A stretch of 54,985 bases of DNA from a virus. Location: positions 1 through 54,985 of IMG/VR virus record IMGVR_UViG_3300031801_000852; one strand, 5' to 3'. Numbering within the stretch: position 1 is the stretch's first letter; every line of letters begins with the position of its first letter. The position numbers and the translations under genes are program-made. Of this stretch, positions 2,901-38,911 are shown in pieces. The notes under the pieces were generated by a model. It worked only from the letters and a program-made list of their open reading frames with translations. It was not told where the DNA came from and searched no databases.

Positions 2901-4335
2901 ATTGTGCTAAAAAACTCTCTAAAGGATTTCTTTGTTCATAATGTGACAAATACGATTCTTTAATTCGTTCTTTGTGATTCTTGAGGTAGATGGTATGACA
3001 ACCATCTTGGAAGGTTTTTTTGGGTCTAAACAAAAGTTCATTTGAAATCTTTCCGGCAAATGCTTTTCTCAACATCGGTTTCCACATCGGGCCGTCTTCT
3101 TTATATTTTGGTGGAATCCTCAAACAAAACTCGACCAAATCTTTGTGAAGAAATGGTGTCCTTAACTCAACAGTTCCACCATACATCATTGCTTTATTGG
3201 TACGTATTAAATTGTTTTTGTGGAGATTTACTACCAGCTTATAACGTTCTTTGATGTAGTCTTTGTCCTTATAGTTCCATGCAAATACATGACCATAAGA
3301 TGCAAACAATTCATCGCTCCCCTCTCCACCAAAAACAACTTTGAATCCTTCATCACGAATTCGTTTGGAAAGTGCTAATTGGGCAACCGCCGGAGAAACT
3401 TGTGTCCACGTATAATCTTCGACTGCATAGACCGCCTCACTCATATTGTCATTGACCCATTCCTCATCAATAATTACTTCATGAAGTGGAACACCTATTT
3501 CTTTACTTGCCATTCGGGCATAATACAAATCATCTTTCTTACCAGTATCACCGACACTCACTACAAAAGCCTGTAGGTCTGGAATTTGTTGTTTAAGTAG
3601 ATAAGTAACGATAGTTGAATCTACACCGCCAGACAAAATTGTACACACCGGCACATCTGAAATTAATTCATTGTGTACACCCTCAGTCAACAAATCTCTA
3701 ATACCATCGATTACTTCTTCTTCTTTCATGTCTTCAATATCTGTCATAGCAGGAAACTCGTAAAATTTTGTTTTCACTAGTTCCCCTGTCACATAATCAA
3801 ATTCATAGTAACAGCCAGGATCTACTAATACAACATCGGAGGCATTGATATTCAAGGATTTTGTAATTGTTTTTAATTCACTTGCAACTACAATTTGTTT
3901 TCCCTTCTTAAAAAAATATAAAGGAATTCTCCCTATGAAATCTCTAGCAAAAGTTAGTTTCTTTTTTTCTTCATCCAAGACTGCAAATCCAAACATACCA
4001 TCAAGATTTTTGATACAATCTTCTTGGTCTAAATGAAACATGTTCAATAACAATTCTGTATCACTTCCTGTATGTAAATCAAATTTAGATTTATGACTAT
4101 CCATACTTCGCCACAGTTCACCATTATAGACTAAAATATATGGCCATTTGAACATAGGTTGCTGTGATTCTTCAGTCAAACCCTGAATAGAAAGTCTGTT
4201 GTGTCCTAACCAAGTATCAGTTTCAATACTGTAGTTAATTCCTTTACTATCTGTACCACGATGATCTATAAGCTTTAAGGCATCGGTAAATTGTTTTTCA
4301 GATGTAAAAATATTCCCTATTACAAATCCACACAT
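2899..4335 (-). CDS. asnB: Asparagine synthetase (glutamine-hydrolysing), AsnB-like
   Basis: 478 residues. Cys2 is the N-terminal nucleophile of a class II glutamine amidotransferase domain, with HNRLSI, VYNGEL and GSDTE as glutamine-binding motifs. The C-terminal half has the ATP-pyrophosphatase loop LSGGVDS near residue 235 and GGEGSDELFASY. The family amidates aspartate using glutamine and ATP; related enzymes amidate other carboxylates. It is somewhat shorter than bacterial AsnB (about 550). Its start overlaps the stop of the upstream methyltransferase by 1 bp, making it the last gene of the gp45-gp44 operon. The C-terminus ends NPLESFLAQ, loosely like the L-x-x-F-F tails of three neighbours, so it may serve DNA modification instead of amino-acid supply. 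Confidence 0.88.
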   Translation of the reverse strand: MCGFVIGNIFTSEKQFTDALKLIDHRGTDSKGINYSIETDTWLGHNRLSIQGLTEESQQPMFKWPYILVYNGELWRSMDSHKSKFDLHTGSDTELLLNMFHLDQEDCIKNLDGMFGFAVLDEEKKKLTFARDFIGRIPLYFFKKGKQIVVASELKTITKSLNINASDVVLVDPGCYYEFDYVTGELVKTKFYEFPAMTDIEDMKEEEVIDGIRDLLTEGVHNELISDVPVCTILSGGVDSTIVTYLLKQQIPDLQAFVVSVGDTGKKDDLYYARMASKEIGVPLHEVIIDEEWVNDNMSEAVYAVEDYTWTQVSPAVAQLALSKRIRDEGFKVVFGGEGSDELFASYGHVFAWNYKDKDYIKERYKLVVNLHKNNLIRTNKAMMYGGTVELRTPFLHKDLVEFCLRIPPKYKEDGPMWKPMLRKAFAGKISNELLFRPKKTFQDGCHTIYLKNHKERIKESYLSHYEQRNPLESFLAQ

Positions 4336-5279
4336 TATTTTTTCCTAAAAAGAAACACGGGCTCATATTTAAAACTATCGGATTTTATATTCTTGCCAGG
4401 CATTTTTGATAAGGTAAGTTGAAACGTTTCCATATATTCAAATTCTTCAGATAGAACTATATTTGCACATTCACCTTCTAAATTATCAAATGAACTAACA
4501 TTAGCTATATTGATTGCCAAATAGCGTCTTGGTTTTAAGCCATATGCGCAGTTTTGTACTGTCTTACGTAAAAATCCCTCTAACCAATCTGCTTTATTAG
4601 GAAACTTTTTATAACTCTGGGTATCCTCATCAGAATATTTTTCTGTATCAAAGTATGGTGGTGAAGTGAAACATAAATCTAAAGATTCTTTTTCGGGGAC
4701 ATAATCTTCACTTCCACTTTGAACTATTTCTAAACGTTGAGTAGTTCCAAAAAGATTTGATTGATTGCCCCAATCCTTTGCAATTTGATTCAATCCATTA
4801 AATGTTTCTTTTGATGGTTCAGTAGCAATATAATTTATATGTGTTTTTATTGCACCTAACAATCTTCCACCATAACCTCCGGACATATCCCATGTAGTAC
4901 CACCATCAGGTAAAAACTTTTCATATATTGCTTGTGCGGCAGTTGGTCTAAAATTACTAACTCCTTGAGAGCCAGACATAACTTTCAAAACTTTTCTTAA
5001 ACCAGAGGGCGAGTCTACATGGCCAAGTTGTTTCATTTTCGTTTCGATTCTCCCCTTATCATTGAAAAAAGTTTGTAGAGGAGTATTCATGTTACCACAT
5101 TTAACATCAAAAGCATGAGGCATATAAGACCACAACAAAGCAAGACCGTGCATTGTTTGTTTTATTGTTTTACCATCCCACAAATTTCCTTGATACTGAA
5201 TAAATTTTTTGAATTCTTCTCTTCTCCAAACATTATCAGTAGGATAATATGGGAACTCTTCAGTCTCCAAACAACGCAT
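4335..5279 (-). CDS. SPPY-type amino-methyltransferase, paralogue 1
   Basis: 314 residues. Motif I is WDMSGGYGGRLLGA near residue 135 and motif IV is TSPPYFDTEKYS near residue 210, the TSPPY form found in N4-cytosine and some N6-adenine methyltransferases. Just before motif I is NFRPTAAQAIYEKF, also recognisable in the paralogues at 7431 and 18166, so the three are one family. Unlike them it has a shorter N-terminal region and no L-x-x-F-F tail. It overlaps the dehydrogenase gene by 20 bp. The substrate is probably an exocyclic amine in DNA; whether it transfers methyl or a larger group is unknown. Confidence 0.75.
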   Translation of the reverse strand: MRCLETEEFPYYPTDNVWRREEFKKFIQYQGNLWDGKTIKQTMHGLALLWSYMPHAFDVKCGNMNTPLQTFFNDKGRIETKMKQLGHVDSPSGLRKVLKVMSGSQGVSNFRPTAAQAIYEKFLPDGGTTWDMSGGYGGRLLGAIKTHINYIATEPSKETFNGLNQIAKDWGNQSNLFGTTQRLEIVQSGSEDYVPEKESLDLCFTSPPYFDTEKYSDEDTQSYKKFPNKADWLEGFLRKTVQNCAYGLKPRRYLAINIANVSSFDNLEGECANIVLSEEFEYMETFQLTLSKMPGKNIKSDSFKYEPVFLFRKK

Positions 5280-6938: not shown

Positions 6939-7434
6939 AGAACCCCGCTAATGACGCGTTACTAGTAGTAGTAGCTTGTTGTAACTGTCGTGTTCCGTTT
7001 TTCATGAAAAATCCATCTCTTGTACGTAGTCTTTCTTGCATTTCTTCGTATACTTCAGGATTATTTCTGAGTCGGAAAATTTCCAAACCTCTTTCTGATT
7101 GACCAGATTCAATAGTTTCTATAGTATGGCAATTCATACACAAAATCTTACACTTTCTAATCTCTTGAAATAATTCTCTTATGTATTGTCTATTTTTTTC
7201 TTTTTTAACATGAGCAATTCTTTTAACCAATCCATTCATTCCTGATCCACCCTTTCCCTGACCTACGCAATAATGATTCTTTTCTAAAGGATTTATATGA
7301 TCAAAAACTAATGCATAACCATTCTCATTATATCCACATATTTCACAACCTTTCGCACACTTGTATTTGTGAAGCCAATGAATTCTTCTGTCTTTTGTTC
7401 TTTTTCTTCTTGCGTTATTCTGAGGAGTACTCAT
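6931..7434 (-). CDS. HNH endonuclease-like protein with clamp-binding-like tail
   Basis: 167 residues. A first zinc knuckle CEICGYNENG is followed by VFDHINPLEKNHY (the first His of the HNH motif in DHINP) and then CKILCMNCHTIE, giving the CxxC...CxxC framework of zinc-bound HNH nucleases. The last residues are SNASLAGFFD, strikingly like the C-terminal sliding-clamp peptide of RB69-type DNA polymerases and like the tails at 7431 and 18166. It overlaps both neighbours by 4-8 bp inside the gp45 operon, which argues for a function with the replisome or with modified DNA and against a random homing insertion. Confidence 0.78.
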   Translation of the reverse strand: MSTPQNNARRKRTKDRRIHWLHKYKCAKGCEICGYNENGYALVFDHINPLEKNHYCVGQGKGGSGMNGLVKRIAHVKKEKNRQYIRELFQEIRKCKILCMNCHTIETIESGQSERGLEIFRLRNNPEVYEEMQERLRTRDGFFMKNGTRQLQQATTTSNASLAGFFD

Positions 7435-8873
7435 TCGAAAAACCCATCTAATGTAGTTTTTTCTTTAGATGTTTCTGAGAACTTTTTCTTTTTGATTGGT
7501 TCTTGAACCACGGCCGGTCCCATACCCCCCAAAGTAGAATCTTTAAAAGGAGCAAATAAATCAACATCTTCTCCGCCAGGTTTTTGAAAACACCAAACAG
7601 ATTCGACAAACCACTTTGCTTGCCATTCATCGTATTTTGCTTTTCTTTCTTCATGTGTATCTCCCTCAAAAGATTTTATGCTTTTCGGGCGAGCCATAAT
7701 TCTCATTCCAATTTGCCCTTTGAAATATTCTTTAAGATCATTTACTAAATCATCACAAGACTTATGGCGTTTACCTTTGACTTTCGGGTCCATAATATTA
7801 ACCATTAACCATCCGCCTGGACTTAATTTATCAAATGCTTTTTTCATTACAGGAAGATAGAATCCATCTCTCCACTCTTCATAAGAATTATATCTACTCC
7901 ATGATTGATCACCTTCAAACTTACTACCCTCTGCATATCGTTCAGTAGCAAAGTATGGTGGAGAACTAAACATGATATCAATGTCATTAGGAATTTCATC
8001 CCACGGCAAGTCTTCAGCAGGCGATCTATAAATTTTTACTTTCTTTTTTCCTTCAACTGAAAACCAATTCTCACCAAATTCTGATTTAGGTTTTTCTTCT
8101 CCTAACCAATTTTCATACTGAACTGCCATCTTGTGATAATTTTCATGGAGATCACCATTCGGGTCCATTCCATAATATTCATCGGCATTAGAAGCAAAAA
8201 ATCCTGTCATACGATCACCCCAACCTGAACTTGTATCGAGTACTTTTTTAGATTTAGTAAAATCATAAAAAGCTTTAGCTACTGATGGTTTGAATTGTGT
8301 CGCAAAATATGCTCCAACTCGAACACCTTCAATGTACAAATTATTCTTGAGAGGCATTCCACAATCTGGATGAAGTCTCCATATCGGTGAAAGTATTTGT
8401 TTTAAATCTGTTTGATCATTCCACATTGTAATTGGACTTGGTGAACGATCATAACTACATTTCATTCGTTCACGATTCATGAACGCATCAGAAATGGTAT
8501 TAAAAATTGCACTAAAATTTAAAATTCCTATTCCCCATTCTGGAAAATTGCCAACATAGTCATCATATTTTTCATGGACTGTTTTACACTTTTCTTTTGG
8601 GAAAATATTATCTTTTAGATTGAGATTGCACAATTTATAAAAGCTTTGTCTAACTTCGTGCATATCAAATTCCCTGAATGGAAATTTGGGGTGGTGTTTT
8701 TCAAAGAAATGAATCAAAGTATCGATCATGACTTTCGCCCGTTTGGACATGGGCAAAGAAGTATCTGTATCGACATACTTCGTATTTAAGTTTTGCCAAG
8801 TAAATAAATCGAATACTGGCAACCCATATTCATTTACATTATCTTCATAAATTTTTAATAATTCTTCGTTCAT
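7431..8873 (-). CDS. SPPY-type amino-methyltransferase, paralogue 2, with clamp-binding-like tail
   Basis: About 480 residues; ATG at 8873 overlaps the gp44 stop (ATGA), so it is chosen over the upstream TTG. A 200-residue N-terminal region precedes motif I VLDTSSGWGDRMTGFFAS and motif IV FSSPPYFATERYAEG. Segments YDRSPSPITMW and QFKPSVAKAFYDF match paralogue 3 (YRSWTI..., QYPPAVAKSLYNL). A basic linker leads to the C-terminus TTLDGFFE, an L-x-x-F-F motif resembling PIP-like clamp peptides. It follows the clamp and clamp loader genes directly. Likely a DNA base amino-alkylating enzyme tethered to gp45; methyl transfer is the default reading. Confidence 0.78.
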   Translation of the reverse strand: MNEELLKIYEDNVNEYGLPVFDLFTWQNLNTKYVDTDTSLPMSKRAKVMIDTLIHFFEKHHPKFPFREFDMHEVRQSFYKLCNLNLKDNIFPKEKCKTVHEKYDDYVGNFPEWGIGILNFSAIFNTISDAFMNRERMKCSYDRSPSPITMWNDQTDLKQILSPIWRLHPDCGMPLKNNLYIEGVRVGAYFATQFKPSVAKAFYDFTKSKKVLDTSSGWGDRMTGFFASNADEYYGMDPNGDLHENYHKMAVQYENWLGEEKPKSEFGENWFSVEGKKKVKIYRSPAEDLPWDEIPNDIDIMFSSPPYFATERYAEGSKFEGDQSWSRYNSYEEWRDGFYLPVMKKAFDKLSPGGWLMVNIMDPKVKGKRHKSCDDLVNDLKEYFKGQIGMRIMARPKSIKSFEGDTHEERKAKYDEWQAKWFVESVWCFQKPGGEDVDLFAPFKDSTLGGMGPAVVQEPIKKKKFSETSKEKTTLDGFFE

Positions 8874-9808
8874 TTGAATTCGCAATCTACCATCATCTCT
8901 GTGAGACAGGCGACTAGGTTAATTTCTTGGTCTGCGACAAACGCAGACTTGTATTGATATTCCGCAATAATAAGAACAGCTTGGGGGATTGAAGTATCCT
9001 TGAGATGTTCATGTATTCCATCATAAATCTTTCGAAAAATCCTTACCGGATCATTATCGACATTTTGAGTAACCCATTTACGTACTTCAGAAAAATGTTT
9101 TTCTTTTAATGCCCTCATCAATTCAAGAAGATTGATTTCACCAATCTGTGCCAAGATACCGGCATCGATAATTCCACCTGCTGCATATCTTTGAAGTTCG
9201 TTTATTACTCTCCTCATATCTGGAAAGTGTTTCAAAACTAATTCAACAAGAACCTTTTCATCAAACTTGATTCCCTTCTCTGTCAAAATTTCTTTGACTC
9301 TTACTAAACATTCTTGACCAAGTTTCGGTTTCTCTGCTCTTGGAATTACAAATTCTATTACAGAGCAACGTGAATGGATAGGATCAATGATCCGATTACG
9401 AAAATTACAAGTAAAGATAAAACTAACATTACTGCTAAATTTTTCAATGAACCCCCTTAGTGCTGGTTGAACCGATTCAGCATTCATGTAATCTGCCTCA
9501 TCGACTATGACAACTTTTCTTCCACCAGTCATTGAGACTGAACTACAATATTGCTGTAGAAGTGTTCTAACTGTATCTATATTTCTTCCCTCATTTGAAC
9601 CATTTATCATTAAATAATCCAAACCTATTTCATCACACATAGCACGAGCTATTGTGGTCTTACCTACACCGGCTCCACCAGACAAAAGTAAATTAGGAAT
9701 TTTACCATCATTAACAAAACCTTGAAAGACTTCTTTGGTTGGTTCTAATAGAACGCAGTCCGCCACTCTTTTAGGGCGAAACTCTTCTACCCATAAAAAG
9801 TTTTCCAT
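8870..9808 (-). CDS. gp44: Clamp loader large subunit (T4 gp44 type)
   Basis: 312 residues, the usual length. AAA+ Walker A is GGAGVGKTTIARAMC near residue 45, Walker B IVDEADYMN, and the clade-specific SRC motif appears in IHSRCSVIEF. N-terminal LWVEEFRPK is typical of clamp loader ATPases. It loads the gp45 clamp at primer-template junctions. It sits 2 bp after gp45. In T4-like phages gp62 normally follows; here a methyltransferase follows with a 4-bp overlap and no gp62 is recognisable in the window. Confidence 0.93.
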   Translation of the reverse strand: MENFLWVEEFRPKRVADCVLLEPTKEVFQGFVNDGKIPNLLLSGGAGVGKTTIARAMCDEIGLDYLMINGSNEGRNIDTVRTLLQQYCSSVSMTGGRKVVIVDEADYMNAESVQPALRGFIEKFSSNVSFIFTCNFRNRIIDPIHSRCSVIEFVIPRAEKPKLGQECLVRVKEILTEKGIKFDEKVLVELVLKHFPDMRRVINELQRYAAGGIIDAGILAQIGEINLLELMRALKEKHFSEVRKWVTQNVDNDPVRIFRKIYDGIHEHLKDTSIPQAVLIIAEYQYKSAFVADQEINLVACLTEMMVDCEFK

Positions 9809-18165: not shown

Positions 18166-19350
18166 TTATACAAAAAATTTATTGAGGGGGGAAGTGTCAT
18201 CTATTATTTGATCCAATGTTCTGCTATCTCCTTTTTTCCATACCCACATTGGTTCAATAATCTGTTTTCCTTTTGATTCTGGTTTATCATTATTACTGCC
18301 TGGTCTACGATTTAATTTTAATCCGATACATCCAGTATATTTAGATTGTGGAAGTGATTGTATAAAATCATTCATGGGATCACAAATCTTTACATAAGTT
18401 TTATTATTTCCTTTATCGTTTGCATACACATCAGCAATATTGATAATCATCGTTCCATCATCTTTTAAGGAACTCCAACATTTTTCTAAAGTTGGAAACA
18501 AGAAATTTCCTAACCAATCATCAATATCTTTTCCATATCGTTTCCAAGATTGGGTTTCATCATCTGCATATCTTTCTACATGAAAATATGGTGGAGAAGT
18601 ATACACCATATCAAATTTTCTCTTGCTAAGATCTACATCTTCTGCCGGAGCTTTTATAAATTCTGTTTTCTTGTAAGTCTCATAAAGCTCATTTTGTCTT
18701 GGATAATTATCAAACACCTCTTGGTTAGGATCAATGCCTGTATAACTTTCTGCATTAGAGGCGTGAAATCCAGCGAGTCTATCACCCCACCCCATAGAAA
18801 AATCTAAAACATCTTTTGCTTCAAATAAATTATAAAGTGATTTTGCTACTGCTGGTGGATATTGAGCTGCCATATACATTCTCATTTGAATGGCTAATCT
18901 CATTTGTTTATTATTTACCTCTGGCATATCTAATGTCCATAGAGGATTCAAAAATGTTTGATGGAATTTTTTAATCGTCCAAGAACGATAGGGGCTTGTA
19001 TGTCTGGCGTGCTGTACTTTCCATCTTGCGAATTGATGAAAGTAATTAGATGATTTTCTTCCTACATTACTATTTTTTATATACCAATGTGATAAATCAT
19101 ATTTGTAATCTGCTTTAGAATAAAGACTATCTTTGGTCAATAAAGTTCTTGCATCAAACTTCGCTAACTCATAAAAGTCTTGTTTAGCTTCTTCTTCAGT
19201 AATATCAACAAGAGGTAAATCTAACCCCTCAATAGCATCTGAGATTGCATCTTTTAATTCTTGTATAGTATAGATATTTTTTAATTGATGCCAATGAGGT
19301 TTGTCGATGATCAATTCACCATTCACTACAAACGATTTCAAATTTAACAT
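18166..19350 (-). CDS. SPPY-type amino-methyltransferase, paralogue 3, with clamp-binding-like tail
   Basis: 394 residues. Motif I is VLDFSMGWGDRLAGFHAS near residue 185, followed by YTGIDPNQE (acidic motif II), and motif IV is TSPPYFHVERYAD. It is clearly the closest relative of the protein at 7431, sharing the upstream QYPPAVAKSLY block and the region after SPPYF. Its C-terminus is TSPLNKFFV, again L-x-x-F-F. It lies 7 bp after the SelW-like gene, 9 kb away from the clamp operon, so this family is present in separate transcription units. Likely an N4-cytosine or N6-adenine modifying enzyme. Confidence 0.78.
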   Translation of the reverse strand: MLNLKSFVVNGELIIDKPHWHQLKNIYTIQELKDAISDAIEGLDLPLVDITEEEAKQDFYELAKFDARTLLTKDSLYSKADYKYDLSHWYIKNSNVGRKSSNYFHQFARWKVQHARHTSPYRSWTIKKFHQTFLNPLWTLDMPEVNNKQMRLAIQMRMYMAAQYPPAVAKSLYNLFEAKDVLDFSMGWGDRLAGFHASNAESYTGIDPNQEVFDNYPRQNELYETYKKTEFIKAPAEDVDLSKRKFDMVYTSPPYFHVERYADDETQSWKRYGKDIDDWLGNFLFPTLEKCWSSLKDDGTMIINIADVYANDKGNNKTYVKICDPMNDFIQSLPQSKYTGCIGLKLNRRPGSNNDKPESKGKQIIEPMWVWKKGDSRTLDQIIDDTSPLNKFFV

Positions 19351-19357
19351 TATAATC

Positions 19358-19591
19358 TTAGTATTCTCCTAGTCCACCCAATCTACGTTCTACATCTTCA
19401 AGAGTAAAAAATTTAGGTATACCATCGCGGACATCTTCTTTCATATACGAGGCATTGTCCTTAAACAATTCAAATTGGCCCGTGTCACCTTCTTCATAGG
19501 TAGTGGTAAGTCCTGCATTATTCATTTCAACAGAAAGACTTTCTGCTTGAGGTCTATAGTTTCAAGAACTACAATATTTGATTATCCACAT
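19358..19591 (-). CDS. SelW/Rdx-family selenoprotein with in-frame UGA
   Basis: A 77-residue frame reads through one TGA at 19564-19562 as selenocysteine. The N-terminus is MWIIKYCSS-U-NYRPQAESL, matching the thioredoxin-like Rdx family (SelW, SelT, SelH type) that starts with a beta strand and C-x-x-U/C, then N-Y/W and Arg. After the UGA the frame continues with TGQFELFKDN and DGIPKFFTLEDV, the usual G-x-F-E strand and G-x-P segment. AAGGAA precedes the ATG, which lies 1 bp after the stop of the previous gene; the end is 7 bp before the methyltransferase. A SECIS-like hairpin follows the UGA. The alternative is a Cys gene broken by a nonsense mutation. Confidence 0.75.
19531..19553 (-). promoter_or_regulatory. 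Putative bacterial SECIS element
   Basis: Twelve nt or so after the UGA, the minus strand forms CAGAAA-GTC-TTTCTG (19545-19531), a perfect 6-bp stem whose loop contains GU. The stem can be extended by CAA/TTG across a single bulged G. Bacterial SECIS elements are hairpins at this distance with GU in the apical loop and a bulge below, bound by SelB. Confidence 0.65.
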
Positions 19592-19592
19592 A

Positions 19593-19742
19593 TTATGTTC
19601 CTTTTTCTAATTCTTTTACACGATGTTGTAAAGTAGAAATAGTAGTATGAATATGTCCCATTTCAGTTGGCTCAAGTTTTGATTTCAAATGTGCTATTTC
19701 GGCCTTGAGTACCGCAATGTATGTTGTTATTGCTTTATCCAT
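19593..19742 (-). CDS. Small helical protein, unknown function
   Basis: 49 residues (MDKAITTYIAVLK...), mostly amphipathic helix with heptad-like Leu/Ile spacing. It overlaps the upstream zinc-ribbon gene by 8 bp and ends 1 bp before the SelW-like ATG, which ties the selenoprotein frame into the operon. No family recognised. Confidence 0.65.
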   Translation of the reverse strand: MDKAITTYIAVLKAEIAHLKSKLEPTEMGHIHTTISTLQHRVKELEKGT

Positions 19743-20116: not shown

Positions 20117-20350
20117 TTATAAGTGGTTTATAAATCGTTCTACCTCTGTATAACCACCGACAAATTTATCATCGATGACCACTTGAGGAACAGTATTTAC
20201 ATTTTTTCCTGCGTGGGCTTTCATTTGTTTAAAATTATCTTGGCTTTCTGTAATATCAATTTTGTCTACTTCTATTTTTGCATCCTTTAACATAGATGTT
20301 ACCCTATCACACCAAACACATTTTGTTGTACTAAATACGACTGCTTTCAT
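20117..20350 (-). CDS. Glutaredoxin
   Basis: 77 residues, the size of class I glutaredoxins. The active site is TKCVWCDRV near residue 12, followed by TVPQVVIDDKFVGGYTE with the cis-Pro and the GG-Y/T-E glutathione-binding loop. It would reduce disulfides or mixed thiols, for example serving ribonucleotide reductase. Having a second thioredoxin-fold gene (SelW-like) 0.5 kb downstream makes this a small redox group. A late-like box AATAAATA lies about 20 bp upstream. Confidence 0.9.
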   Translation of the reverse strand: MKAVVFSTTKCVWCDRVTSMLKDAKIEVDKIDITESQDNFKQMKAHAGKNVNTVPQVVIDDKFVGGYTEVERFINHL

Positions 20351-22407: not shown

Positions 22408-23493
22408 TTAATTTAATTTGCCGTTCACACCTTCAACATAAAAATTCATCGTGTCAAGAGCATGTCTTTTGATTTCACCAGCAGGAATTTTTGTTCCGTC
22501 CTGTTTGGTAACACCGGCGCTAAATGGAAACCATTTGTCCATTTTATCATTTACCCAATTCATCTTAATTGTCTCGACTTGATTGACAACTGAGCCAGGC
22601 ACATTAACACCCCATGGCGATAGACCTACACAATTTTCCTGTAGACCCCAATTCAACTTTTGATTTGGTTTCCACGTTCCATTTGCTACAGAGTCAAGTA
22701 TGTGTTTATACATAAGATTCCAGTTGAACATCATACCTGTTACATAACGATCTGGGCCGTTACTTCCCATAGGTGCATCGTTACCCATACTCCAAACTTC
22801 TCTACCATCAGTTTTCCATGCTTGTTGTGCAAGGGTAACTACACTAGGTGAATCAGTTGTTGTATACAGAATGTCATTTCCATCATCGAGAAGTGCTTTG
22901 GCTGCATCCATATCTTTAGGTGGATCAAACCAAGAGTTGATCCATACAACATTAACTACTGCATCTGGATTAACTGACCTTGCACCAAGTGCAATTGCAT
23001 TGATGTTACGAATGATTTCTGGAATTGTATGTGAACCGACCACACCAATTTTATTAGTCTTGGTCATCAATCCAGCGGCAATACCTGTGAGGTATCGTGC
23101 TTGATAACTCATACAACCATAATTATCAAAGTTAGTATCATTACCTTTGAATCCTGTAGCGTGCATGAAAATTGTATCTGGCGATTTCGCCGCCGCTTTT
23201 GCCATTCCATCCATATAACCGAATGAAGTTGCAAATACAATATCGTGTTTTCGTGCAAGTTTAAGGAATATTTTTGTTGACTCTGCTTCTGGCACCATTT
23301 CTACCATGCCAACTTTATAACCATGTTTTGTCAATGATTGAAATCCATCATGATGTCTCATTGACCATCCACCATCAGTATGTGGTCCCACTAGAACATA
23401 TCCAACTGAAGGTAATTTCCCTCCAGATACATTTACTATACTAAAGATTGCCAACCCGACAATCGTTGCCAATAAGGCAAATATTTTCTTCAT
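22408..23493 (-). CDS. BMP-family (PnrA-like) periplasmic binding protein
   Basis: 361 residues with a signal peptide (MKKIFALLATIVGLAIFSIV). PSVGYVLVGPHTDGGWSMRHHDG is the hallmark opening of BMP proteins (G-W-x-x-x-H-x-x-G), and SFGYMDGMAKAA, NYGCMSYQARYLTGIAAG and GVVGSHTIPEIIRNINA follow in order. The family captures purine nucleosides or similar ligands for ABC importers. The lipobox Cys is not evident, so it is probably soluble. No permease or ATPase is nearby, so it would have to use host transport components. Unusual cargo for a phage. Confidence 0.87.
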   Translation of the reverse strand: MKKIFALLATIVGLAIFSIVNVSGGKLPSVGYVLVGPHTDGGWSMRHHDGFQSLTKHGYKVGMVEMVPEAESTKIFLKLARKHDIVFATSFGYMDGMAKAAAKSPDTIFMHATGFKGNDTNFDNYGCMSYQARYLTGIAAGLMTKTNKIGVVGSHTIPEIIRNINAIALGARSVNPDAVVNVVWINSWFDPPKDMDAAKALLDDGNDILYTTTDSPSVVTLAQQAWKTDGREVWSMGNDAPMGSNGPDRYVTGMMFNWNLMYKHILDSVANGTWKPNQKLNWGLQENCVGLSPWGVNVPGSVVNQVETIKMNWVNDKMDKWFPFSAGVTKQDGTKIPAGEIKRHALDTMNFYVEGVNGKLN

Positions 23494-24051: not shown

Positions 24052-25581
24052 TCAAAATCCTCTAAAATATTCAATAAATTCTTTGTATGTGGACTCATTT
24101 TGTAAGTCTTGATCCCATTGTTTATTCATCTCATAATAATCTAGTTGTGCATGTTCAGACAGGTTTCTCCCGTCCCATTCAACATCAAGTTCTGCACCTG
24201 CTACATCTTTATTGATTACATTAATGCCTTCCATTACATAACTCCACAAACCCCAATTTGCACTGCCTGGATTATCGTTGAAAACATTAACAGTAGGTAT
24301 ATTAGTTTTAGCCATTTCTAGTAAATCTTTAACAAATTCAGTTTTTGTTACACCAGTCTTTATATATTTCCAAAATTCACTATCTTCTCGGCCACCCATA
24401 TAGTGCATTACAAGAAAATCTTTTAAATCATCATACATTATTCTTGTACGCTTGTTATAAATTGCAATACTACCTTCATTTATTGTATTGTTGATGGTAG
24501 GTTTTACATATTCAAAGAATAGATTGTTTGCTTGGAAAATAGTTGAATGTATACTATTTGCTTCCAATGGTTCTAAGAAAGCACTACTAAGTCCTATTGT
24601 TACACAGTTTTTGATCCATGCAGATTCTTGCCGTCCAGAAGAAAATTTAATTGTTCTAATAGGATCAATCTCCTGTCCTAGTATAGTTTCTATTTCTTCT
24701 TGTGCTTTGTCTGGAGTAGTATATGCATCACAATACACATACCCACATCCTTTACTGTCCATTAATGGTATTTGCCACATCCATCCTGCTTTTTGAGCCC
24801 AAGCTGTTGTATATGGTTCAGGAATTTCATCTTGTTTATATTTTAAATGGAATGGCATACCGGCGTTTAATGGTAAGTTGTCTTTATAACTGACCCATTT
24901 GCTTGGTAGGTGTTTCATTATTACACGATTAAAGCCTGAACAGTCAACAAATAAGTCACCATCAACAGTCTGGCCATTAGATAGGCCTAAGTCTTTAACA
25001 AATCCCTGTTCATTAAGTGACACATCTAATACCTCTGAATCAATACATTTTGTGTTATGCCTTTGTAGAGAAATTTTCTTAAAATATTGACCAGTAAGGT
25101 GGGCATCTATGTGATATGCATGATCTTTCTCACTTCCATTTATAAATTGTTTAGTATGTTTGTTAAAATTACTACTACCATGATAAATCCGATGTCCGCA
25201 CCTTGATAATTTTAACATATCTTGTCGCGATAGCTTATCTAAACCATAATTAAACATAATGTCAGGTACAAACCAGTTAGTGGTAGTTCCATCTATAGGG
25301 CCTATGTAATAATCATCTATATTATTAGTCCAGCCTTTATGTTTGATAGCATATTTTAGTGTTGCACCTGTTTCTTTAATAAATTCATGTTGGTCACAAC
25401 CAAAGTTTGTTGCCCCGTTTGCAACTATAGCAGTAAAAAATCCTGTTGTACTTTCACCTACTCCTACAACTCCTATTTTGCTGCTTTCTATAACAGTAAT
25501 ATTGTGATTAGGGTGTCTTGCACTAGCAATTATTGCACTAATCCAACCAGCAGTGCCACCACCAACGATAACTATTTTCAT
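24052..25581 (-). CDS. Flavin-dependent halogenase (tryptophan-halogenase family), copy 1
   Basis: 509 residues. IVGGGTAGWISAI is the FAD-binding GxGxxG motif at the N-terminus, GVGESTTG the second flavin motif, and GWMWQIPL near residue 270 is the W-x-W-x-I-P signature that separates halogenases from monooxygenases. The catalytic Lys is present in ATLKYAIKHKGW, and FLEPLEANSIHS holds the conserved Glu. A halogenase of this family from a marine cyanophage has been shown to act on diverse aromatic compounds. Substrate here unknown. It lies in the cargo region between the PRTase and the Na/Pi transporter genes. Confidence 0.9.
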   Translation of the reverse strand: MKIVIVGGGTAGWISAIIASARHPNHNITVIESSKIGVVGVGESTTGFFTAIVANGATNFGCDQHEFIKETGATLKYAIKHKGWTNNIDDYYIGPIDGTTTNWFVPDIMFNYGLDKLSRQDMLKLSRCGHRIYHGSSNFNKHTKQFINGSEKDHAYHIDAHLTGQYFKKISLQRHNTKCIDSEVLDVSLNEQGFVKDLGLSNGQTVDGDLFVDCSGFNRVIMKHLPSKWVSYKDNLPLNAGMPFHLKYKQDEIPEPYTTAWAQKAGWMWQIPLMDSKGCGYVYCDAYTTPDKAQEEIETILGQEIDPIRTIKFSSGRQESAWIKNCVTIGLSSAFLEPLEANSIHSTIFQANNLFFEYVKPTINNTINEGSIAIYNKRTRIMYDDLKDFLVMHYMGGREDSEFWKYIKTGVTKTEFVKDLLEMAKTNIPTVNVFNDNPGSANWGLWSYVMEGINVINKDVAGAELDVEWDGRNLSEHAQLDYYEMNKQWDQDLQNESTYKEFIEYFRGF

Positions 25582-25602: not shown

Positions 25603-26097
25603 TCAAAATTTTGAGATAAATCTTGCAATGGGCTGAATAAATGGAAGTAGGGCAACTGCCATAACTGTATTCACTCCTGTATGAACAAGTGCTACTTGTT
25701 TTGTTATTCCTGTGGGCATACCATCACTTACTAATATTCCCGCTATCCATATCGTTCCTGTTGTTCCCACATTTGCTCCTAGTATTGCGGCGATTGCAGA
25801 TGGTAAAGGTAATGTTCCAGAAGCAACTAATCCTATTACAGCAGTTGTAGTAAGTGATGAAGATTGCCAAAGGAGTGTAAAAACAATTGCTCCTAAAAAC
25901 ATCCAATAAGGATTTCCCAAAAACCATTCAAGTTGTTCTAAATGGCCCAATGATTTCATTCCACCTGAAAACATCTTGAGTCCAATATAAAAAATTACCA
26001 AGCCTAAAAGAGCTTGGAAAACAGGATTATTAAATTCCATAAAATTTCTTGATTTATATTTCCACGAATCGTAGAGTTGTCTGTGTTTCTTTTTCAT
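25603..26097 (-). CDS. Half-length Na/Pi cotransporter-like protein
   Basis: 164 residues with four or so hydrophobic segments. TLLWQSSSLTTTAVIGLVASG contains the QSSS motif of NptA/YjbB Na-phosphate cotransporters, and AILGANVGTTGTIW is the adjacent GANxGTT motif. Cellular homologues carry two such inverted repeats; only one is present here, so the protein would need to dimerise or is a remnant. A phosphate-uptake function would suit a phage of a P-limited ocean, as pstS does in cyanophages. Start may be internal (MEFNNPV), omitting a basic leader. Confidence 0.75.
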   Translation of the reverse strand: MKKKHRQLYDSWKYKSRNFMEFNNPVFQALLGLVIFYIGLKMFSGGMKSLGHLEQLEWFLGNPYWMFLGAIVFTLLWQSSSLTTTAVIGLVASGTLPLPSAIAAILGANVGTTGTIWIAGILVSDGMPTGITKQVALVHTGVNTVMAVALLPFIQPIARFISKF

Positions 26098-26654: not shown

Positions 26655-27638
26655 TTAAGTAACTTTTTCTTCTTCTATTAACTTAGCCTCAAATTCTCTT
26701 AAACGCCTAAAAACACTTATTAATTCAATAATAGTAGGCCACGCTTTTAATAGATATTGCATCGATCCTTCTACTCTACCAAATGCTCTTATTATTTGTT
26801 GCATTACACCTAGAGTCATTACTCCAGCAACTATGGCTGGTGCTAGGAATACATAAGCTGATAATACGTTTGCTTGCAAGTAAGCCATTCGACCAATATT
26901 AAAATATAGATAACGTAAGTAACTTAAAAAATGAATTTTACGAACATCATCAAAGAATTCTTCGATTTTCTTTGGTCTAACAGTTCCATCATCTTCGGCA
27001 ATAACAAGTATTTTTCTATATGCCGCTTCTTTTGCTTGTATATCATATTCTATACCAACTAAACGCAATATATACCCTAATCCAATTAAAAAGGCAGTAC
27101 CTCCTAATGTCCAAAGTAACGCACCTGTAATCAATCCATATTCCCAATCACCAAAAAAGAATATCGGAATACCCATTGACAATCCAAACAGTATAGGAAT
27201 AAACTGAACTAAAACCATAACTGATTCAATTAAGGCTGTTCCTAAACCTTCCATTATACGAGTAAATTTAATTGTATCTTCTTGAACTCTTTGCGATGCA
27301 CCTTCTATTGTTCTGGCTTTCTCATACACACTATGATACCATTCAACCATGGCTGTACGCCATCTAAACAAATAGTGAGCCGTAAAATAACTTATTACAA
27401 CATAGAGCCCAACATATATTCCTGCTAGTGTAATAAATGATAATAGACTTTCAAAATATTCTTCTATTGTAATTGCATTTGGTGTAGCAAGTGCTTTTTG
27501 AATCATGTCATAAAATTGACCAAACCACTCGTTGATCTTAACATCTATCTTTACTTGAACCCAAAGTGATCCCAAAATAATTATTGAGCCTAACCAGGCC
27601 CATAGAAACCATTTTTTGTTTGTAAAAAATCTAAACAT
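26655..27638 (-). CDS. SbmA/BacA-like peptide transporter
   Basis: 327 residues with about six membrane segments. EGASQRVQEDTIKFTRIMEGLG is the highly conserved family block (E-G-A-x-Q-R-x-Q-E-D), and RWRTAMVEWYH precedes it; the second half has LYFNIGRMAYLQANVLSAY and LGVMQQIIRAFGRVEGS. SbmA/BacA imports peptides and peptide antibiotics into the cytoplasm by proton drive. The protein is shorter than the 400-residue cellular form, mostly at the termini. Phage carriage is unusual. It is followed by three lipoprotein genes upstream in the same direction. Confidence 0.85.
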   Translation of the reverse strand: MFRFFTNKKWFLWAWLGSIIILGSLWVQVKIDVKINEWFGQFYDMIQKALATPNAITIEEYFESLLSFITLAGIYVGLYVVISYFTAHYLFRWRTAMVEWYHSVYEKARTIEGASQRVQEDTIKFTRIMEGLGTALIESVMVLVQFIPILFGLSMGIPIFFFGDWEYGLITGALLWTLGGTAFLIGLGYILRLVGIEYDIQAKEAAYRKILVIAEDDGTVRPKKIEEFFDDVRKIHFLSYLRYLYFNIGRMAYLQANVLSAYVFLAPAIVAGVMTLGVMQQIIRAFGRVEGSMQYLLKAWPTIIELISVFRRLREFEAKLIEEEKVT

Positions 27639-34504: not shown

Positions 34505-34882
34505 TTAATTCATATATCCACTTGGTTCAAAATCTTCTAAAAGTTTTGACATTTTATTTAGTTCTTGATCTCTCGTCTGTGTACTATCTTCATTTACAGA
34601 ATTTAAATAAAATCCTTTATATTCTTCTCCTAAATCTGAAACAGACATAATACTTCTTGTGGCTAAAGGTACTTGTGTAGTATCTGTAAAGGGCAACCAT
34701 TTAAGTAATGCTAATTGAGTAACTTTTTCTTCTTTATCAAATTTCATTAGAACTTTCATTGGCCAATGGAGTTCCAAATAACCACTACTTTTACTTTTAT
34801 CAGTTACTTGTACTTTTGCGAAAAGTATTTCTCCATTATCTAATCTAATAACTTTTAAGTTTTTGTTATCTAATTCTGCCAT
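34505..34882 (-). CDS. Conserved phage protein, possibly Sm-like fold
   Basis: 125 residues. VIRLDNGEILFAKVQVTDK at the start has the look of an LSm/Hfq-like beta-barrel (short strand, G, strand), and the rest is acidic. Proteins of this type sit between UvsW and gp55 in T4-like marine phages; function is not established to my knowledge. It ends just before the divergent promoter pair. Confidence 0.6.
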   Translation of the reverse strand: MAELDNKNLKVIRLDNGEILFAKVQVTDKSKSSGYLELHWPMKVLMKFDKEEKVTQLALLKWLPFTDTTQVPLATRSIMSVSDLGEEYKGFYLNSVNEDSTQTRDQELNKMSKLLEDFEPSGYMN

Positions 34883-36761: not shown

Positions 36762-37332
36762 AATCTTTCAATTTTTTAAGGGCAACCATCGTGCCCGCTT
36801 GTTCAATTATTTCGGCGTAACCCTCTTCGATCCATTCATCTATAAATCTAGTTACTCCTTCACAAGTTGGATCAGTATAATCATGAGCTAAACAAGGACC
36901 ATTTAAATAATTCCAATGATGAATAAGGTCTTTCTTAACTCCTTCATATGAATGATCACCATCAACAAATAACATAGACAATGGTACATTTTCCATTGCG
37001 TGAGAATTCTCTGTCCTAATATCTATACGTTCTTTTTCTTCGTAATCATTCAACCAATCATCCACATCTGGATCATGACACCCCTCAACAACATCAACGG
37101 AAACTATTTCTACTTTGGTATCGTGTGTAGCAATGGCAAGTAATATGGTTGATCCTCCCCAATATCGACCAATCTCTAATATGATATTACCCTCTCTTGT
37201 CTTGGGCATTATTTTCCATTGCTGTGAAGCATACTTGTACAATAATCCTGCTTCATGCAAATCTAATCGAATTATATTTCTTGTTTCTCTTGGTGAATTA
37301 AATAACCATAATAATTGTGAAAAATCAGTCAT
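36751..37332 (-). CDS. Class I SAM methyltransferase (Methyltransf_24 type)
   Basis: 193 residues. NIILEIGRYWGGSTILLA is the SAM loop, MLFVDGDHSYEGVKKDL the typical DGDHS metal/active-site motif of the small-molecule O-methyltransferase family, and CLAHDYTDPTCEGV follows. It overlaps the halogenase gene by 8 bp and UvsY by 11 bp, so it belongs to the halogenase cluster. It may methylate a sugar or aromatic product. Confidence 0.75.
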   Translation of the reverse strand: MTDFSQLLWLFNSPRETRNIIRLDLHEAGLLYKYASQQWKIMPKTREGNIILEIGRYWGGSTILLAIATHDTKVEIVSVDVVEGCHDPDVDDWLNDYEEKERIDIRTENSHAMENVPLSMLFVDGDHSYEGVKKDLIHHWNYLNGPCLAHDYTDPTCEGVTRFIDEWIEEGYAEIIEQAGTMVALKKLKDYEI

Positions 37333-38911
37333 TGTGAATATTGTTTTTTAGATATTGATAAGGGCTTGGAAAATCTTTAATTTGTTCATCCCAATTCTTT
37401 TTTCTTTCTTCAATTTGCTGAATATTGAACTTAGTCATTTTTTTAATACTTTCCATATTGCCCCCACTATATTTTATTGAATGTATATCTGTAGGGTTCC
37501 AATTCATACCAGCCGCCATACAATGGGCAGGACTATATGTATTGAATTGCTTATTAAAATTTTTCTCCCTATAAGCCTGATGAAATTTTCCAGATAAACC
37601 ATCAGAAGTAGATGAAAAAAGATCTGGTGACCACTCTCTAGATATTATCTCTCGCCAGTATTCAGTATCATCTCTATGTGTGAGCCCATAACACATTACA
37701 ACCGGAGCGGCAAATCCATAAAAATCATCATGACATTTGGTAGTAAATTCTTTTCTATCCCATTCACTTATATGTCCTCGTTCTAATGTACAACATAAAT
37801 TAAATATAAATTGATGAGTACAATGTAATCCATTGGATTGTAATGGTTCAATAAAACCTGCTGCTAACCCAATTGCACAAGTATTTTTAACCCATAATTT
37901 TGATTGTATTCCACATCTCATTGGAATTAAATGATATTCTAAAGCTTCAACATTTTCATATCCTTTTCTTCTTAATCCCTGTTTAAATTCTCGTAATGCG
38001 GCTTGTGTAGAAATAAACTTATCCGAAAATACATAACCAGATCCCATTCTAGACCACAATGGAATTTCCCATATCCAGCCATTTTCAATCGCTGTACACT
38101 TTGTATAATTTACAATTTGTGTTTCTGGATCTTTATAAGGTATTTTAGTAGCCCAAGCATAATTATTGGGAATATAATCATTAATGTTTACAAATGATAC
38201 CCCAAAGGCTTCAGTCAATAATAAAGATTTGAATCCTGTACAGTCTATAAATAAATCTGCCTCAAGTCTACGCCCATCATCTAATACAAGATGTTTAATC
38301 CCATTATCATTCAAAGGGATTTCTTTTACTTCTGCTAGAATATGAGTGAAATTATTAGAATACTTAGACTTACAGTAATTATCTTTCAACCATATACCGA
38401 ATTTAGTAGCATCAAATTGATAAGAATATTTCGATTGTTGTTGAACTTCATTCTCTGAAGAATTATCAGTAAAAAGTGATTTGTTTTGATTTACAAGTGC
38501 CATCCCTGGGAAAAAACATTCCGCATAATCACTTACTGGTGTTTCGGGATAAAGTATTTTTTTAAAATGCCAGTCATCTAATCCAGTATTTGGTGGAAAT
38601 ATTGGCATACCAAATGGATAATGAAATGTTCCTGAATCTTCTCGATACCAGTTTTCAAATGCAATACTTAATTTATAAATGGCATCACAATGAGGCATAA
38701 AATCACGGTCATTAATGTCTACCAAACTTAACCAATTAGCAATACCTTGAAAACCACTTTGACCACCAGCAACAGTACTTTCTCCCACACCTATATTAGA
38801 AATATTAGGAGATTCTACAAGTGTAATTTTTTTATCAGGAAATTGATTTAATAATGTGGCTGCGGTCATCCACCCCGCCGTACCACCTCCTACTATTGCA
38901 ATATTAATCAT
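37325..38911 (-). CDS. Flavin-dependent halogenase (tryptophan-halogenase family), copy 2
   Basis: 528 residues. AIVGGGTAGWMTAATLL and GVGESTVAGGQ are the FAD motifs; NGWIWEIPLW is the W-x-W-x-I-P signature; the catalytic Lys appears in CDAIYKLSIAFENW, and GFIEPLQSNGLH has the conserved Glu. Only moderately similar to copy 1 at 24052, so the two were probably acquired separately or diverged long ago. It overlaps the radical SAM gene by 4 bp and is part of a run transcribed from the late box at 42444. Confidence 0.9.
   Translation of the reverse strand: MINIAIVGGGTAGWMTAATLLNQFPDKKITLVESPNISNIGVGESTVAGGQSGFQGIANWLSLVDINDRDFMPHCDAIYKLSIAFENWYREDSGTFHYPFGMPIFPPNTGLDDWHFKKILYPETPVSDYAECFFPGMALVNQNKSLFTDNSSENEVQQQSKYSYQFDATKFGIWLKDNYCKSKYSNNFTHILAEVKEIPLNDNGIKHLVLDDGRRLEADLFIDCTGFKSLLLTEAFGVSFVNINDYIPNNYAWATKIPYKDPETQIVNYTKCTAIENGWIWEIPLWSRMGSGYVFSDKFISTQAALREFKQGLRRKGYENVEALEYHLIPMRCGIQSKLWVKNTCAIGLAAGFIEPLQSNGLHCTHQFIFNLCCTLERGHISEWDRKEFTTKCHDDFYGFAAPVVMCYGLTHRDDTEYWREIISREWSPDLFSSTSDGLSGKFHQAYREKNFNKQFNTYSPAHCMAAGMNWNPTDIHSIKYSGGNMESIKKMTKFNIQQIEERKKNWDEQIKDFPSPYQYLKNNIHND

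Follow-up and report, generated by a model that had tools for sequence, protein, structure and literature searches.

Selenoproteins have been described for cells and for a few poxviruses, and those of the SelW type combine a thioredoxin fold with a selenol group and are linked to glutathione. Earlier studies of selenoproteins in the sea reportedly treat SelW-like genes as cellular. The known viral selenoproteins are the glutathione peroxidases of poxviruses such as molluscum contagiosum and fowlpox (PMC8310308). On the side of bacteriophages, a tRNA-Sec gene was reported in Basilisk-like Bacillus phages, beyond which we found no other phage link to selenoprotein synthesis in the open-licence literature (PMC6145125). 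Neither did this literature contain a published bacteriophage selenoprotein, so an earlier mention elsewhere is possible. In this line, a 2026 review of the prokaryotic selenoproteome leaves phage and virus unmentioned (PMC13188914), and a marine trace-element survey found few or no viral sequences for families beyond RNR II, plastocyanin and Cu-Zn SOD (PMC9402790).

The stretch of DNA analysed here (the window) is a metagenomic IMG/VR record of 54,985 bp, which is a T4-like marine phage as judged from its terminase and major capsid, 59-66% identical to those of cyanophages, Pelagibacter phage HTVC008M and Methylophilales phages. Unlike the deposited marine T4-like phages, it carries a SelW gene. 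With high confidence, we regard this as a functional phage selenoprotein gene, encoding a SelW-like protein of the Rdx family whose UGA would be decoded by the host under the direction of a SECIS element; the actual insertion of selenocysteine (Sec) we infer strongly, the redox role and the host less firmly. Like the poxvirus peroxidases, it is a cellular selenoprotein gene borne by a virus and would rely on the Sec machinery of the host, but those belong to eukaryotic viruses, with eukaryotic SECIS decoding, and to an unrelated protein family. The Basilisk-like phages show the opposite situation, a predicted tRNA-Sec without a selenoprotein, whereas here there is a selenoprotein gene without a tRNA-Sec. 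A tblastn search of 50,697 deposited phage records (E <= 1) gave no member of the family, and two other phage members of it gave chance-level hits only against deposited phage records. Altogether, the bacteriophage selenoprotein family appears to be new, while the protein family and the decoding mechanism were already known.

A SelW-like frame with an internal TGA

The gene spans positions 19358-19591 on the minus strand, with an ATG start and a TAA stop, and its 77 codons read MWIIKYCSS-U-NYRPQAESLSVEMNNAGLTTTYEEGDTGQFELFKDNASYMKEDVRDGIPKFFTLEDVERRLGGLGEY before the stop. The in-frame TGA (19562-19564, minus strand), putatively read as Sec, falls in a CxxU motif formed by Cys7 and Sec10. A ribosome binding site, AAAGGAA with an AAGGA core, lies at 19598-19604 (minus strand), about 7 nt ahead of the ATG. 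The gene is tightly packed in a run of minus-strand genes, where an upstream 49-aa ORF with no assigned function (19593-19742, TAA at 19593-19595) ends 1 bp before it and a DNA methylase-like gene (N6_N4_Mtase; 18166-19350) follows after 7 bp. A glutaredoxin gene (20117-20350, minus strand) is found a few genes upstream in the same run. The methylase-like gene is one of three of the SPPY type in the window, together with 4335-5279 and 7431-8885 (all on the minus strand), which share 27-29% identity with each other. A preliminary description, made from the letters of the window, had already proposed the 77-residue frame with its single TGA, the ribosome binding site and the 1-bp and 7-bp spacing to the neighbours, all of which hold on the sequence, as does its prediction that standard gene callers would give just a 55-residue fragment: the standard ORF list has only the piece at 19358-19525.

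The same description took TGA to be an ordinary stop elsewhere in the window, and this is indeed so. Twenty-seven of the 66 genes taken as real stop at TGA and only selW contains an internal stop, which indicates a standard code and rules out a reassignment. As for other Sec genes in the window, long extensions of TGA-ended ORFs lead into recognised next genes (a tryptophan halogenase, the ORF at 34505-34882), the exception being a 40-codon tail at 7431.

The assignment to the SelW/Rdx family, also advanced in the preliminary description, is borne out by profiles and by fold. With the TGA read as Cys, the window protein matches the Pfam Rdx family (PF10262; SelW/SelT/SelH) with an E of 2.9e-4 and 21.4 bits, just under the cut-off of 22.6, and the NCBIfam SelT/SelW/SelH models with a best E of 2.6e-9, under the curated cut-offs of those models. 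Moreover, all 25 phage members, the window protein included, match Pfam Rdx, with several above its curated cut-off (L206, 44.7 bits; L021, 37.4; L018, 33.1; L036, 31.1; L044, 30.4), and hhalign of the phage family against bacterial Sec-SelW gave a probability of 99.2 and an E of 2.5e-19 over 68 columns. Residues Y6, C7, U10, N11, Y12, P14, A16 and E17 are invariant in the alignment of the 25 distinct phage proteins, so that the redox motif reads Y-C-x-x-U-N-Y throughout; in the AlphaFold2 model it follows a first strand at residues 2-6. This model (pLDDT 83), whose input alignment took in bacterial homologues, has SelW/Rdx structures as all of its best 21 PDB matches, with a TM score of up to 0.75 (2fa8), followed by mouse SelW (2npb); the solved Rdx homologues among these matches are Cys proteins. 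Against a library of viral structures it matched only generic thioredoxins and glutaredoxins. Sequence searches of the PDB were less telling: the family profile found SelW (2p0g) weakly, at E 0.21, and phmmer gave only a spurious antibody match.

The phage proteins share with the bacterial SelW-like selenoproteins (Rdx, PF10262) the CxxU motif in a UNYxPxAxSL context, the thioredoxin-like Rdx fold and a hairpin at an identical position, but they form their own clade (100/100), sit in phage genomes and carry the signature AE(S/R)LS..GQF(E/D)LF...FF, whereas the bacterial SK..GRFP motif is mostly absent from them. Their stem is also richer in A+U (GCAGAAA GUC UUUCUGC). A divergent phage Sec-SelW (L206:4772-4996, plus strand), whose contig also carries an RNR-like gene, keeps the SK..GRFP motif and is intermediate between the bacterial and phage forms.

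Conservation of the TGA and of a downstream hairpin

The same codon is TGA in 43 other marine IMG/VR contigs whose proteins are 41-99% identical to that of the window, which argues that the TGA is not a product of chance. A DNA pattern allowing any third base in the Sec codon, run on viral contigs, recovered 38 true relatives, all with TGA and none with TGC or TGT, and a profile-guided scan added five further viral relatives, again all with TGA. The Cys homologues that the preliminary description expected in related phages did not appear: the relatives comprise 43 Sec forms, no Cys form and two contigs in which the codon is deleted. It had also named a TGT or TGC variant as the sign of a sequencing error, and unrelated sequence or frame decay past the TGA as evidence against recoding. 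No such variant occurs across dozens of independent contigs, and both sequence and frame are conserved past the TGA.

These data bear on the two simplest ways of dismissing the codon. As the window is a metagenomic virus record, a Cys codon misread through sequencing or assembly could be suspected, but the other contigs with TGA come from many metagenomes and the hairpin described below is conserved and covarying; judging from these independent contigs the error is already refuted, and we give it a practically negligible probability. A real stop, on the other hand, would leave a 9-residue peptide and a separate 55-aa ORF from the ATG at 19525, or else a decaying pseudogene. ORF callers do list the 55-aa ORF and TGA does end many genes of the window, but in 16 of 30 distinct relatives an Ile stands in place of the candidate internal Met, so the internal start is not conserved, and the residues from the TGA to this Met (NYRPQAESLS) belong to the best-conserved of the protein. 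Moreover, the same TGA is kept within a clade whose members diverge down to 41% identity, and for the part after the hairpin, dN/dS of the window against its three closest relatives is 0.07-0.17, indicating that the protein after the TGA is under purifying selection. A genuine stop is in this way already contradicted by the comparative data, and we hold it to be very improbable.

A candidate SECIS hairpin of bacterial type, GCAGAAA-GUC-UUUCUGU, lies at 19530-19546 (minus strand; loop at 19537-19539). It begins 16-17 nt past the UGA, within the coding sequence, and consists of 7 bp joining nt 19-25 with 29-35 (the U of UGA being 1) and a 3-nt loop, GUC or GGC in the phages, opened by a conserved G as in bacterial SECIS. 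Across 25 distinct phage sequences 99.4% of the cells are paired, sliding the partner by 1-3 columns lowers pairing to 33-68%, and none of 500 shuffles reached the covariation score; the main covarying pair is 21-33 (A-U, G-C, G-U and C-G). Codons 17-19 inside the hairpin have no synonymous variation (GAA in 30/30, AGT in 21/21, CTT in 30/30) despite 2-6 synonymous choices, in contrast to other codons, which vary more freely; here it seems to be the RNA that is under selection. In 80 bacterial SelW genes that share the UGA motif a hairpin occupies the identical position, with another stem sequence that is nevertheless paired and with loops GUC, GUU, GUG, GGC and similar. The SECIS signal resides in the 28-nt hairpin, which stands out moderately on its own (z -2.3), and in the comparative data, since the 51 nt after the UGA have no unusual folding energy relative to shuffled sequences (z -0.53). 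Scanning the window with a covariance model built on the phage set, the window sequence among them, gave a single site (72.8 bits, E 4e-11) and no second one, and an Rfam scan of the hairpin region gave nothing relevant and no match to a SECIS family. In three other relatives (L185, L193 and L194) T replaces E17 and the SECIS hairpin forms anew, its register shifted (GCGACA-AGUU-UGUC-C-GC) and one base bulged.

A sub-lineage with a relative that is 83% identical (L003:5001-5228/L010:6001-6228 and L004:1484-1711) has lost the Sec codon through an in-frame deletion of 3 nt (CGR-KYRPQAE), and its protein has neither a CxxU nor a CxxC motif. It also carries a change that breaks the SECIS stem, the predicted energy of the hairpin going from -6.6 to -2.6 kcal/mol, and this joint loss of UGA and SECIS is what a Sec reading predicts. 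After the hairpin, dN/dS in the L003/L004 lineage is about 0.08-0.12, a sign of purifying selection. From these values, Sec is not indispensable everywhere, as this lineage keeps the protein under selection without it, and it offers a natural experiment on the worth of Sec to a phage.

Probable Sec decoding by the host and a possible link with SAR324

Fifteen related phage records, possibly fragments, contained no selB, no selD and no tRNA-Sec above threshold, one of them being 134.5 kb long with a capsid 94% identical to that of the window. Decoding of the UGA is therefore most likely supplied by the host. Hits of the tRNA-Sec model in the phage records were all under the cut-off; the five regions read by ARAGORN are ordinary tRNAs (Tyr, Gly, Arg, Asp and Asn), and the hit in the window itself is its tRNA-Tyr. 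During infection, SelA, SelB, SelC and SelD of the host would read the UGA as Sec, with the short hairpin directing SelB.

Among bacteria, selB was above the cut-off in 10 of 11 genomes with the Sec-SelW motif, SAR324 included, and the host of the window phage is probably a Sec-decoding bacterium. A search of SAR324 genomes with the phage profile gave, in one of them (G035), a phage-type Sec-SelW gene (L225:2047-2271, minus strand) with an E of 3.2e-26, versus about 1e-9 for ordinary SAR324 SelW. This copy, which has the UGA and the same SECIS (GCAGAAAGUCUUUCUGC), sits on a chromosomal contig between bacterial genes: on one side an AarF-like kinase that shares 82% identity with its counterpart in another SAR324 genome, on the other a class III cyclase gene that shares 81% with that of a third. 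The tree places it within the phage clade, whose split from bacterial SelW stands at 100/100. A SelW of the phage clade on a contig of bacterial genes makes it very probable that genes have passed between these phages and SAR324. Our best guess for the host lineage is accordingly SAR324, the best supported on the basis of this one contig, which falls short of proving that the window phage infects SAR324. A Gammaproteobacterial origin found no favour, with just 1 of 399 genomes of that phylum reaching E 1e-8 with the phage profile (7e-9). The window also encodes an SbmA/BacA-like peptide transporter (26655-27638, minus strand; E 3e-132) with relatives in L024 (92%), L044 and L046; an uninformative search for a host link through this gene gave nothing in eight candidate genomes. 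The phage selW gene very probably descends from a bacterial SelW and has diversified within marine phages.

Probable Sec insertion and possible roles of the protein

Sequence alone is silent on the residue inserted at the UGA, which could in principle be read by a near-cognate tRNA, such as that for Trp, or recoded for regulation. This is hardly credible in our opinion, as the UGA occupies the Sec/Cys position of the SelW CxxU, the hairpin resembles bacterial SECIS in its location and its apical G, matches that of bacterial Sec-SelW and is broken where the UGA is lost, and the bacteria with such SelW nearly all carry selB. Sec decoding, as claimed in the preliminary description, is thus supported by the conserved UGA, selection, the covarying SECIS, the SelW/Rdx fold, the Sec-SelW bacteria with selB and the SAR324 copy. 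Given a true selenoprotein, its role is a separate matter. The product would most likely act as a small thiol/selenol oxidoreductase in glutathione- or glutaredoxin-linked redox chemistry during infection, and we somewhat favour such a small redox helper, for which the glutaredoxin neighbourhood is suggestive only. A less probable but serious alternative is a role outside glutathione-linked redox, either the modulation of host proteins by selenol contact or a structural or inhibitory Rdx protein. It is favoured by the L003/L004 lineage, which keeps its protein without Sec or CxxC, and by the physiological substrate of SelW, which is unsettled even for cellular members. Against it, C7 and U10 are invariant in the Sec forms and selW has a glutaredoxin gene at a distance of up to about 2.2 kb, in the window as in five related contigs (L015, L028, L029, L030 and L046), although T4-like phages often carry glutaredoxin.

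Bacteriophages thus very probably encode selenoproteins that rely on UGA decoding by the host. Phage Sec-SelW genes are missed or truncated by standard gene callers, and viruses may account for part of the SelW-like selenoprotein signal of marine metagenomes. The family also connects the host range of phages with the Sec trait in concrete molecular terms. More speculatively, and only as a tentative picture that we find rather doubtful as a whole, a clade of ocean T4-like phages could be tied to Sec-decoding hosts (SAR324 and perhaps others) through a redox-boosting selenoprotein, its expression depending on host selB and selenium, with gene exchange between phage and host; a lineage that moved to a Sec-less host would have deleted the Sec codon and kept the protein while its SECIS decayed.

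Other genes of the window, all on the minus strand, may be of interest as well. Two could be auxiliary genes for nutrient uptake, a PnrA/BMP-type substrate-binding lipoprotein (22408-23493) and a Na+/Pi-cotransporter fragment (25603-26097). A tryptophan halogenase-like flavoprotein gene with a Pfam match is found at 24052-25581, and a second, distantly related copy at 37325-38911.
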